Shown here one piece after another: positions 3 through 26,263 of a DNA stretch of 37,664 bases. Source of the stretch: an uncultured Bacilli bacterium (lineage in GTDB: Bacteria > Bacillota_I > Bacilli_A > RF39 > UBA660); assembly GCA_947623935.1 (NCBI GenBank), contig CANQIE010000010.1:1-37664 (forward strand), given 5' to 3'. Positions within the stretch are counted from its first letter, which is position 1. Each line of letters begins with the position of its first letter. The position numbers were made by a program, and so were the translations under genes. Under the pieces are notes generated by a model that searched no databases, was not told the DNA's origin, and saw nothing but the letters and a program-made list of their open reading frames with translations.

Positions 3-944
3 ATCAATTTTATAAATGGAACAAGTAATCAAGCAAATGATAATTATATGATACATCCAGCCTTTACTTTTGGAGATAAAGAATTAACAGGAATGTGGTA
101 TGGAAAGTTTGAAACAAGTAGTAAAGAAGAATGTATCGCAACAAGTGGTTCAGTAAATACTGAATGTGATATAGAAACGTATACTCCGGAAATAAAACCA
201 AATGTAACTTCATGGAAAGGAATTCGAGTATCAACAGCTTTTGAAGTAAGTAGAAGAATGCAAACGATAAATTATAATATTTACGGATTTTCTAGTAGTC
301 AAACCAGTTATGATACCCATATGAGTAAGAATAGTGAATGGGGTGCAGTTGCCTACTTATCCCAAAGTCAATATGGAAAATATGGAAAAAATGAGCAAGA
401 AGTAACTGGAAATAGTTGCAGTAGTCACATGACAGGGGTTGCAGGATGTGGTGACACATATTCTTCAGAAAATGGACAAAAAACATCTACTACAGGAAAT
501 ATCACAGGGGTCTACGATATGAGCGGAGGAACTAATGAATATGTCATGGGTGTGCTAAATGATGGTACAGGAATGCCTATAAGTGGTAATAGTCCATCAT
601 CTAATTCAGGATTCAATGGAGTATTAAATAGCGGTGTTCCAGTATCTGGCGGAAGGGTGTTACCAGATGCTAAGTATTATGATTTATATACAAGTAGTAA
701 TACTAGTTCTGATATTGGAAGTTTATCTGCCACAGCATGTGAAAAAGGAATATGTTATGGACATGCTTTATCCGAAACCGGAGGATGGTATGGGGACTAT
801 TATCTTCTCGTAAGTTCTTCGAACCCGTGGTTCGTCCGTGGCGGCCAATATGCCGATGATTCGTATACTGGTGTTTTTGCGTCGCACCATAGCTCCGGTT
901 CCGCGGCTAGCATTGGTTCTTTCCGACTTGTCCTTATTCCATAA
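3..944 (+). CDS. 5'-truncated FGE-sulfatase/C-type-lectin-like surface protein; putative DGR target with C-terminal variable region
   Basis: Frame is open from base 3 (INFINGTSNQANDNYMIHPAFTFG...), so the listed ATG at 48 is probably internal. Contains TGNITGVYDMSGGTNEYVMG (FGE-like core) and ends NPWFVRGGQYADDSYTGVFASHHSSGSAASIGSFRLVLIP (RGG...FRLV ending typical of FGE/CLec-fold proteins and DGR variable proteins). Confidence 0.7.
   Translation: MNFINGTSNQANDNYMIHPAFTFGDKELTGMWYGKFETSSKEECIATSGSVNTECDIETYTPEIKPNVTSWKGIRVSTAFEVSRRMQTINYNIYGFSSSQTSYDTHMSKNSEWGAVAYLSQSQYGKYGKNEQEVTGNSCSSHMTGVAGCGDTYSSENGQKTSTTGNITGVYDMSGGTNEYVMGVLNDGTGMPISGNSPSSNSGFNGVLNSGVPVSGGRVLPDAKYYDLYTSSNTSSDIGSLSATACEKGICYGHALSETGGWYGDYYLLVSSSNPWFVRGGQYADDSYTGVFASHHSSGSAASIGSFRLVLIP
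801..943 (+). other. Putative DGR variable region (VR) at 3' end of target gene
   Basis: Hand count over 801-940: 72/140 G+C. Adenine in 821-940 is about 16/120. The preceding part of the gene is A-rich. Encodes the RGG...SFRLVL terminus. No TR copy seen in the window. Confidence 0.55.
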
Positions 945-1020: not shown

Positions 1021-3573
1021 ATGAAACGTAGTGAAGTAAATAGAAGCGACTTGTCGCCTATGATGCAACAATATATGAAAATAAAGGATCAGTATGAAGA
1101 TGCCATCCTCTTTTTTCGCTTAGGAGATTTTTATGAAATGTTTTTTGATGATGCGATTACGGCAAGTCACGAATTAGAACTTGCTTTAACTGGAAAACAA
1201 GCAGGCTTAAAGGAACGTGTTCCTATGTGTGGGGTACCACATCATGCTTATCAAATGTATTTGGATAAATTAATTGATAAAGGTTATAAAGTAGCAATTG
1301 CCGAACAATTAACGGATCCTAAAGAAACACAAGGAATGGTCGAACGTGATGTTATTCAAGTCGTTACTAAAGGAACTAGACTTGATGCTGTTTTAAATGA
1401 AAAAGATTATAATTTTATTGGAAACATTTATGATTTTGAATACTGTTATGGACTGGCTTATACCGATATTTCAACGGGACAATTTTATACATTATTACTG
1501 GATTGCGATACTTCTAAATTGATTAATGAAATTGTTAATCGTAATATTAAAGAACTAATTGTTAATAGTAAAATAGATCGGGGAATTGTTAAAACTCTAA
1601 GAGATAATTATCAAGTACTAGTTACGATTACGGATGGAGTTTACGAAGAAGAGGGTTACAATTTCTTATGGAAATCCTTAGAAGATGTAAGACTTATTAC
1701 TACCGTACGACATTTGCTTTGTTATTTGATGGAGACCAAAAAAGGAGATCTTACCCATTTACAACCGGTTGAAGAAGTTAATACAAAGAAGTATTTACGT
1801 TTCGATATGCATACGAAGAAGAATCTAGAACTTACAGAAACCATTCGCCTACATGAGCGAACCTATTCTTTATTGTGGCTTCTTGATAAGACCAAAACCG
1901 CCATGGGAAGCAGATATCTTCGTATGAATATTGAAAACCCTTTAGTAGACAAAAAAGAAATTGAACGAAGATATGACATTATTGAAAATTTACTCAACCA
2001 ATTTATATTAAAAGGAGAGTTATCAGAAGAATTATCTTATGTATACGACCTTGAACGCTTATCTTCTCGTATTAGTTATGGAAACTTAAATGCTAGAGAC
2101 TTAATTCAGTTAAAGAATTCACTATTTCATCTACCTAATATTAAACGAATACTAGAAGAATTAAATTATGATAAGCAAATAGAGACTTTAGAAGAACTTT
2201 ATCAATTGTTAGATAAAAGTATTAATGAAGATGCTCCTGTTACCTTAAAAGAAGGTTCATTAATAAAAAAAGGATATAGTGAAGAATTAGATAATATAAG
2301 AAATATTCGAAGTGGAAGTAAAGACTTTATTCTACAAATTGAACAAGATGAAAAAGAAAAGACCGGTATTAAAAACTTAAAAGTAGGGTACAATCGTGTT
2401 TTTGGATACTATATCGAAGTAAGTAAAGGAAGTATCCCACTTATTAAAGAAGAATTTGGTTATGAACGTAAACAAACTTTAGCGAATTGCGAACGTTTTA
2501 TTACGCCTTTGTTAAAAGAAAAAGAAAATATTATTCTAGGAGCAGAAGAAAAGATTATTGAACTCGAATATCAACTCTTTATGGAGATAAGAGATAAAGT
2601 TAAGACGTATATTGGAAAGATTCAACGAATTAGTAAAGTGATTGCCGAAGTCGATATGATGTCTTCCCTTGCAACGGTTGCAGAGGAAAATGCTTTTGTG
2701 CGACCTACGATTACTTCCGATAACGTTATTAAAATCACGGAAGGACGTCATCCCGTTGTAGAAAAAGTAAATCGTGAAAATTATGTGCCAAACGATGTCA
2801 TGATGGGAAAAGATACCAATATCTTATTGATTACGGGTCCTAATATGGCTGGTAAATCTACTTATATGAGACAAGTTGCTATTATAGTGATCTTAGCACA
2901 AATGGGATCTTTTGTTCCATGTAAAAGTTGTACGATTCCGATCTTTGATGCTATTTTTACAAGAATTGGTGCGAGTGACGACTTAGTCAGTGGCGAAAGT
3001 ACCTTCATGGTCGAGATGAAAGAAGCGAATTATGCCTTATCAGAAGCAACCGAACATAGTCTTATTCTTTTTGATGAATTAGGAAGAGGTACGGCAACCT
3101 ATGACGGAATGAGTCTTGCTCAAGCGATTTTGGAATACATTCACGATAAGATTAAAGCGAAGACGTTATTTTCAACGCATTACCATGAGTTAACCATGCT
3201 TGCAAATGATCTACCAAATCTAAGAAATGTTCATGTTTCAGCGATCGAAGAGGATGGAAAAATCACGTTCTTACATAAAATTAAAAATGGTTCGGTCGAT
3301 AAGAGCTATGGTATCCATGTGGCAAGTCTTGCGAAACTTCCTAAAAGCCTAATTGAACGTGCCGAAGAAATACTTGATGTGTACGAACATCAAAACAAAA
3401 AAGAAACAACCTTCATGCAGACTTCACTATTCTCTAATTTCGATACCGAAGAAAAAGAAGAAGTAAATCCGATCGAAGAGAAATTAAAGGAGTTAAAACC
3501 ACTTGAAATGACGCCAATGGAAGCCTTAAATACCTTATATGAATTAGTGAATGAAGTAAATAAGAAAAAATAA
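1021..3573 (+). CDS. mutS: DNA mismatch repair protein MutS
   Basis: MutS N-terminus (SPMMQQYMKIKDQYEDAILFFRLGDFYEMFFDDA), Walker A TGPNMAGKSTYMRQ, FDELGRGTATYDGMSLA, STHYHELT. Confidence 0.97.
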   Translation: MKRSEVNRSDLSPMMQQYMKIKDQYEDAILFFRLGDFYEMFFDDAITASHELELALTGKQAGLKERVPMCGVPHHAYQMYLDKLIDKGYKVAIAEQLTDPKETQGMVERDVIQVVTKGTRLDAVLNEKDYNFIGNIYDFEYCYGLAYTDISTGQFYTLLLDCDTSKLINEIVNRNIKELIVNSKIDRGIVKTLRDNYQVLVTITDGVYEEEGYNFLWKSLEDVRLITTVRHLLCYLMETKKGDLTHLQPVEEVNTKKYLRFDMHTKKNLELTETIRLHERTYSLLWLLDKTKTAMGSRYLRMNIENPLVDKKEIERRYDIIENLLNQFILKGELSEELSYVYDLERLSSRISYGNLNARDLIQLKNSLFHLPNIKRILEELNYDKQIETLEELYQLLDKSINEDAPVTLKEGSLIKKGYSEELDNIRNIRSGSKDFILQIEQDEKEKTGIKNLKVGYNRVFGYYIEVSKGSIPLIKEEFGYERKQTLANCERFITPLLKEKENIILGAEEKIIELEYQLFMEIRDKVKTYIGKIQRISKVIAEVDMMSSLATVAEENAFVRPTITSDNVIKITEGRHPVVEKVNRENYVPNDVMMGKDTNILLITGPNMAGKSTYMRQVAIIVILAQMGSFVPCKSCTIPIFDAIFTRIGASDDLVSGESTFMVEMKEANYALSEATEHSLILFDELGRGTATYDGMSLAQAILEYIHDKIKAKTLFSTHYHELTMLANDLPNLRNVHVSAIEEDGKITFLHKIKNGSVDKSYGIHVASLAKLPKSLIERAEEILDVYEHQNKKETTFMQTSLFSNFDTEEKEEVNPIEEKLKELKPLEMTPMEALNTLYELVNEVNKKK

Positions 3574-24793: not shown

Positions 24794-26263
24794 TTAATAG
24801 GAATTAAAACGCATTCCTGTAGGTGTTTCAATTTCACTTTGATTTATAATTACGTAAGTCCAATCGTTTTTGTTATTTGATACACCTAAGGTATGACTAT
24901 TATAGTATGGATTATTGCTATAATCATGCCATACTGCGATTTCATCTAAATTATAGGCGCTTCCTAAATCAACGGTAATACATTGAGTACCAGTTGCATT
25001 TGTTCTGACAATTTCGTTGACATTAGTATCAATAATACCATTTGTAATGAGTTGCAAATTCATATTCGCATTAAAGGAAGCGGATACCGTTTTATGCAAG
25101 GCAACATTTTTCCCTTCTGAAATAGCTTCTAATTCAATCCATTTATTTTCGGTACTGAGGCTGGAACCATTAATACAATCTTGGATATAACGGACATTTT
25201 CTAAATAGTTGTTCCTTTTATCATAAGAGGTACCTTTATAGCTAAGAACAGCTTTCCCATTTCCTATATTAATTCCTCCTAGCATAATACCATTTATAAA
25301 GTATTTATTGGAATAGTGGAGTGTGTTGTTGGATGGTGTAATCGTACGACTAGCAGTGATAGCGTTTACTCCCGCATAACCTGAAATAAAAGATGAACCT
25401 CCTCCACTTAATCCTTGGATCACACAAGTGTTTCCGTTGCTTGGATTTAGTGAAGGGTTACCACTCACACCTCCACCGCCACCATAGTAGCCACCACCTG
25501 CACCATAAGCTTGATTGCAATTTACTAAGTTACTATTTTTTACAAATCCATCGCCACCAACACCAAAAGATCCTGCGTTTTGACCGCTTGTTCCGCCACT
25601 TGTCTGACTTCCACCGCCTCCAGCAATAGCGCCTCCTGTTTTATCGTTTCCTTTTTCTCCGATCAAAGTACCTCCGTTACTACCTTGACTATTTTCGCCC
25701 ACGCCTCCACCGGCTGCAACCATGATGCGGCTTTGAAGAGACTCTAAATTGTTCCATGCACCTGAGACAAGACGTACATCTGTGGCACCTCCACCTCCGG
25801 CATAGCGAAGGGAGCTAGGACCTGTATGATAGCCTCCAATTCCTCCTCCATTATAAGCTCCTACGGAACATGTTATATAATTGTTACATCCTGTTTTACC
25901 ACTTTCTCCTACGTAAAAATAAAGTTTTTCGCCAGCATGTAAGTAAATGATACCTGAAGTATAGGCACCTAATCCCATGGTGTCATTATTACTAAATGCT
26001 CCACTTGCACCCCATAATTCAATTTGATAAAACCCCTCTTTTACTACTTCGTATTCTTGAGGAGAACCTGTATATTCAAAAGTAACTGCTTTCTCTTGAT
26101 AGGCGGCATTGTTTAAATCATCTTTGATATTATCAATTAAATTGGAATTGTTCTTTTTTAAACCAGACATAGTCGATAAAATAAGCATCATAATCATCGC
26201 AACTAATCCTAAAATAGAGTAAAGCATGATGCTAAAAGCAAACCCCTTATTATTTATTCGCAT
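24794..26263 (-). CDS. Prepilin-like-anchored Gly-rich (ALK-type) plus F5/8 discoidin-like surface protein
   Basis: N-terminus MRINNKGFAFSIMLYSILGLVAMIMMLILS; GGGGATDVRLV...GGGGGVSG...GGGSSFISGYAGV Gly-rich core; C-terminus GKNVALHKTVSAS...VDLGSAYNLDEIAVWHDYS...SHTLGVSNNKNDW. Confidence 0.75.
   Translation of the reverse strand: MRINNKGFAFSIMLYSILGLVAMIMMLILSTMSGLKKNNSNLIDNIKDDLNNAAYQEKAVTFEYTGSPQEYEVVKEGFYQIELWGASGAFSNNDTMGLGAYTSGIIYLHAGEKLYFYVGESGKTGCNNYITCSVGAYNGGGIGGYHTGPSSLRYAGGGGATDVRLVSGAWNNLESLQSRIMVAAGGGVGENSQGSNGGTLIGEKGNDKTGGAIAGGGGSQTSGGTSGQNAGSFGVGGDGFVKNSNLVNCNQAYGAGGGYYGGGGGVSGNPSLNPSNGNTCVIQGLSGGGSSFISGYAGVNAITASRTITPSNNTLHYSNKYFINGIMLGGINIGNGKAVLSYKGTSYDKRNNYLENVRYIQDCINGSSLSTENKWIELEAISEGKNVALHKTVSASFNANMNLQLITNGIIDTNVNEIVRTNATGTQCITVDLGSAYNLDEIAVWHDYSNNPYYNSHTLGVSNNKNDWTYVIINQSEIETPTGMRFNSY

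Follow-up and report, generated by a model that had tools for sequence, protein, structure and literature searches.

Our analysis indicates that the 3' end of the first gene in the DNA examined here (37,664 nucleotides, hereafter the window) almost certainly originated from a diversity-generating retroelement (DGR), namely over positions 815-941, and that this gene is one member of a family of 42 dispersed target loci in the same genome. Considering all lines of evidence together, the explanation that we find the most convincing, and hold to be probable, is that the variable repeat (VR) was written by a DGR, that the reverse transcriptase (RT) operon was lost afterwards, and that the VR persists today as legacy sequence with no further rewriting. 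The initial annotation, which described the gene as a DGR target with RT and template outside the window, was thus right about the origin; the gene is not a single target, and its diversification may have ceased.

The features on which the argument rests are the following:
3-944, plus strand: 3' part of the DGR target gene (putative surface protein with an FGE/CLec-like C-terminal domain), truncated by the contig start
798-814, plus strand: hypervariable residues 266-268 and 271, recognised by residue entropy among the paralogs, upstream of the template homology
815-941, plus strand: VR of 127 bases, ungapped to the template repeat (TR) at C2:59000-58874 (minus strand)
834-917, plus strand: mutated VR core, beginning with the adenine-rich codon that comes first after PWF and ending with the codon just before SFRLVL
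918-941, plus strand: conserved VR 3' end (SFRLVLIP), an IMH-like candidate with shared third-position differences between VRs and TR

Contig C37 ends with the same 77 bases with which the window begins (C37:9878-9954), an overlap that probably marks a join of the two contigs in the assembly graph, within the target gene. The 5' part of the gene lies on C37, and joining the two pieces gives a putative open reading frame of about 655 aa that starts with a membrane anchor at the N-terminus. The target proteins would probably be displayed at the cell surface. Several further contigs of the genome start or stop within target genes. After the target gene follows a gene at 1021-3570 that we take, from its sequence, to be mutS.

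Within the target gene the base composition changes abruptly at ~806-815, and this change coincides with the onset of homology to the template. A recount reproduced the earlier figures exactly: 72 of the 140 bases in 801-940 are G or C, and 821-940 contains 16 adenines; the share of adenine in 3-800 is 37%. Just 0.4% of all 140-base intervals in the 37.7 kb reach the G+C level of 801-940, the remaining ones being near 25.6-25.7 kb and 27.9 kb. The G+C-rich patch at 25569-25713 lies inside the gene of a glycine-rich protein (24794-26263, minus strand) and is unrelated to the VR. The interval originally proposed, 775-944, includes the 3' variable segment and begins about 40 bases before the template homology, which starts at 815. 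The residues encoded by 798-806 are hypervariable in the paralogs and yet lie outside the homology to the sole TR found in the genome; the TR of a genome from another genus (G025) reaches over the residues equivalent to those at 798-814.

Searches of the window gene in Pfam gave only an FGE-sulfatase match below the cut-off, and PADLOC gave no match for it. An AlphaFold2 model of the domain, built from 35 relatives, reached a mean pLDDT of 72 (moderate confidence), and the best match of this model in Foldseek was the DGR variable protein TaqVP of Thermus aquaticus (PDB 5vf4; probability 0.98), at a low TM-score of 0.3-0.4 and 16% identity, with Mtd and TvpA among the next, weak matches. TaqVP also came first in a profile search of PDB sequences (E = 0.096). 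The predicted structure therefore supports a CLec/FGE reading of the domain, the details of which are unproven.

The source genome, from the class Bacilli, is a 1.15 Mb assembly in 50 contigs that is 93% complete. Relatives of the window protein were found at 47 places in it, which come down to 42 target loci once the 5' piece of the window gene and the TR are set aside and three genes that were each listed as two parts are counted once. All 42 loci end in a common frame (PW, RGG, G-VF, SFR-VL) with variable filling, and all 42 VRs are open reading frames. Taking ~2 kb per locus, we estimate that approximately 7% of the genome is given to dispersed VR-bearing genes. The bodies of the paralogs are mutually 50-70% identical; the G+C content of their last 120 bases is 41-62% (36% in one case) versus 33-38% in the body, so that most of them display the same switch in composition. 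Among 41 aligned paralogs the mean residue entropy is 2.1 bits at the C-terminus versus 1.2 bits in the body, and most of the hypervariable positions hold 13-17 residue types with near-invariant residues between them. The initial annotation had read QYADDSY, ASHHSS and ASI as variable residues set in an invariant frame; all three fall on hypervariable columns, and the four frame elements are conserved across the alignment.

The genome contains a single free-standing, adenine-rich copy of the repeat, at C2:59011-58874 on the minus strand. No full target gene ends in this TR, which is placed after the end of one target, reads NPWFKRGGNYNDGTNAGVFNFNNNNGNANSNNSFRLVLAPRL and is rich in AAC and AAT codons. 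In the ungapped alignment the window VR is changed at 23 of 34 template adenines and at 28 of 93 other bases. Because template adenines lie almost exclusively at codon positions 1 and 2, the comparison was restricted to these positions, where 22 of 33 adenines versus 5 of 51 other bases are changed (Fisher p = 6e-8); within the core at 834-917 the corresponding counts are 21 of 30 and 3 of 26. Tested individually against the same TR, 40 of the 42 VRs gave p < 0.01. For the 33 VRs that align with few insertions, variation at codon positions 1 and 2 is 0.61 in adenine columns versus 0.16 in other columns (p = 1e-12), and the bases that replace template adenines are mixed (G 271, T 231, C 165). 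When each VR in turn was used as the template, the ratio of adenine to non-adenine changes dropped from 3.1 for the TR to a mean of 1.45, and the non-adenine mismatch was at least 0.38 with any VR versus 0.20 with the TR. The VR family centres on the adenine-rich C2 TR, whose adenines coincide with the variable sites.

A near-identical template with mismatches at its adenines had been predicted. The mismatches do gather at TR adenines; the 28 non-adenine differences rule out the C2 TR as the direct parent of the window VR and imply, at 30%, that this VR is old or was written from another template. At template columns 114, 117 and 123 most VRs read T/G/T. This 3' signature is absent from the C2 TR and is carried by a second locus, C18 (L039:1-440, minus strand), in which a target VR is fused directly to a 3' flank and spacer of the TR type. 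The signature would be explained by a second TR, of the C18 type, from which most of the VRs were written and which was then lost. Part of it may instead reflect a difference of the IMH/IMH* type, as in Treponema denticola (PMC4891356), and it is by analogy with T. denticola and phage BPP-1 (PMC4891356) that we regard 918-941 as a candidate IMH. Third-position differences shared by the VR 3' ends, in the source genome and in the congener G002, could also mark a second TR. In the predicted fold of the conserved spacer downstream of the TR, compared among four sequences, double changes occur in 3 of 44 pairs, too few for a claim about structure.

Complete systems are present in relatives. On contig C130 of G002 (the same sequence as CANRHM01, a MAG with the labels "uncultured Bacilli" and Lapin), the order is target VR end, hairpin-like stretch, TR, conserved spacer of ~200 bases, a MutS-domain-I-like gene, bAvd and RT, with E-values of 4.7e-8 (Pfam), 3.6e-20 and 1.1e-17 for the three genes and the motifs IGNYTSQ and YMDD in the RT. 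The G002 TR is 94% identical to the C2 TR, and the freshest VR pairs of this genome differ at 59-69% of adenines versus 1-4% of non-adenines. Two operons of this kind are present in another congener, G001. In G025 the cassette VR differs from its own TR at 9 of 34 adenines and at 0 of 109 other bases, and the dispersed VRs follow the adenine rule with more drift. In these relatives the machinery is a DGR acting on many dispersed targets. MutS-like accessory genes occur in DGRs, and were reportedly described there by Wu and colleagues in 2018. The accessory of G002 (L103:532-945) aligns with the N-terminus of the window MutS (29% over 103 aa, E = 3e-6).

We also surveyed 59 genomes of the family, the source genome included, each from a different genus. 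The target family is present in 29 of the 59, with at least 34 copies in G008 and at least 38 in G025. A match to RVT_1 occurs in 29 of 59 sampled genomes, the source genome again included. Most of the matching RTs within the family carry IGxxxSQ with YMDD or a near variant; others are of the QGxxxSP type. The adenine rule was left unscored for G008, where local VR matches on the RT-bearing contig fell on a neighbouring target and gave no clear TR. G027, G033 and G035 lack an RVT_1 match despite 8-15 targets; their assemblies are incomplete, and repertoires separated from an RT may recur in these genera.

The initial annotation had placed both RT and TR outside the window. The TR is indeed in the same genome, on C2; neither a DGR-type RT nor Avd was found in this genome. 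No match to RVT_1 (PF00078) is present in the 93%-complete assembly, and the full set of MutS-I-like, bAvd and RT queries detected nothing in it beyond a MutS-I-like remnant of ~20-22 codons. Neither of the two recognisable cassettes retains the operon. At C2, where TR and spacer have been kept, small yqfC- and yqfD-like genes follow directly in place of the MutS-I-like gene, avd and RT, and no RT lies within 10 kb downstream. At C18 the spacer is followed by ~20 codons of the MutS-I-like gene that end at a stop, an arrangement that looks like a VR/TR recombination that removed the cassette. A clean internal deletion at C18 was considered by comparing the contig end with the G002 sequence after the RT; this match is suggestive only, being reached in 13 of 2000 shuffles. 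The VRs of the source genome are more drifted than those of G002: every VR differs from the TR at 13% or more of non-adenine sites, and the closest VR pairs are 10-17% apart at such sites. Because the operon is missing at both recognisable cassettes and the VRs have drifted further than those of G002, we suggest that, given a DGR origin, the RT operon has probably been lost from this genome rather than having fallen into an assembly gap. One observation is unexpected if the remaining elements have long been useless: the C2 TR and spacer are still ~94% identical to those of the congener.

Alternatively, the DGR is intact and active, and the RT cassette together with the true parent template is merely unassembled. 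We regard this as unlikely but as deserving real weight, given that the MAG is not complete and has contig breaks within target genes, such that an RT cassette could be absent from the assembly, that a congener has two RT operons, that the 3' signature absent from the C2 TR points to a second template, and that every VR has retained an open reading frame. Against it, both recognisable cassette loci are without the operon, and no two VRs are less than 10% apart at non-adenine sites, whereas the RT-bearing genome has pairs at 1-4%. We therefore favor legacy sequence no longer rewritten as the most likely state of the window VR; the repertoire of the genome as a whole is possibly legacy and frozen too.

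Explanations that dispense with a DGR fit the data far less well. The many third-position differences among the VRs (0.42 of cells) and the divergence of the paralog bodies would be compatible with a fast-evolving binding surface shaped by mutation, recombination and selection, the C2 copy then being a gene fragment. This is very improbable, as that fragment is the adenine-rich hub whose adenines mark the variable sites, its homolog in G002 precedes avd and a DGR-type RT, and fresh VRs in G002 and G025 change almost exclusively at template adenines. We find it scarcely credible that the G+C-rich 3' end is a foreign segment recently acquired by horizontal transfer or gene conversion: the sharpness of the change in composition is what such an event would leave, but the switch occurs at the equivalent place in most of the 42 paralogs, the composition of the template accounts for it, and no better donor than the TR for 815-941 at non-adenine sites was found in the source genome. 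A phage origin of the target was also considered, and no match was present among 50,697 phage records. The adenine-biased mismatches, the complete DGRs of the congeners and the similarity in fold to a DGR variable protein all agree with the first interpretation of the segment as a DGR-type VR of an FGE/CLec-like target.

Combining the data from the source genome with those from its relatives, we suggest a DGR-written repertoire that outlived its operon, in which (i) an RNA with the adenine-rich template would have been copied by the DGR reverse transcriptase with bAvd and probably the MutS-I-like accessory, (ii) random bases would have been placed opposite adenines during copying, and (iii) the cDNA would then have taken the place of the target gene's 3' end. 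At least 42 dispersed paralogous surface-protein genes would have been written in this way, by one or more cassettes, before the MutS-I-like/avd/RT operon was lost from both recognisable cassettes, leaving one template with its spacer. More broadly, reduced-genome gut Bacilli might use DGRs to build very large dispersed surface repertoires (42 loci here, at least 34 and at least 38 in two other genera), with the mutator later deleted in this genome and a frozen inherited library remaining under selection; we put this forward tentatively, as somewhat short of probable. Related genomes with and without RT offer a natural experiment in what becomes of a repertoire made by a DGR after loss of the mutator: it could decay, be kept by selection or be re-armed by a new cassette. 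Surveys anchored on the RT, such as the pipeline that begins at the RT and then seeks surrounding repeats (PMC8144416), would not anchor on an RT-less genome of this kind.

Our literature search, of partial coverage, found no paper on DGRs in the RF39/UBA660 lineage. The closest parallel is T. denticola, in which FGE/CLec-fold surface targets of the TvpA type with a C-terminal VR are dispersed over several loci and isolates without RT or TR retain leftover targets (PMC4891356). T. denticola has 2-7 such targets per isolate versus 42 here, its accessory is HRDC versus bAvd and a MutS-I-like protein in the congeners, and in the source genome, unlike in T. denticola, TR and spacer survive without the RT. 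Cyanobacterial DGRs resemble the system described here in their remote paralogous CLec targets, the position of the VR at the 3' end and a TR identity of at least 50%; 58 of them with 90 target genes are known from 52 genomes, and their targets are tied to signalling (PMC7517822), whereas here a single genome of 1.15 Mb carries one repertoire of surface proteins with membrane anchors. In a large survey single TRs had a dozen to hundreds of VR copies, and an example with 91 pairs showed few A-to-N changes (PMC6642488). Bordetella phage BPP-1 (mtd) shares the adenine rule, the VR at the 3' end and, with the congeners, Avd and RT downstream of the TR, and Mtd is a weak fold match; its DGR is phage-borne with a single target beside the RT, versus chromosomal targets next to housekeeping genes (mutS) in the source genome. 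TaqVP is the closest in fold and differs in its low TM-score and sequence identity. DGR targets of this kind are already known; this case stands out by how many of them one small genome holds and by a template that has survived the apparent loss of the mutator.
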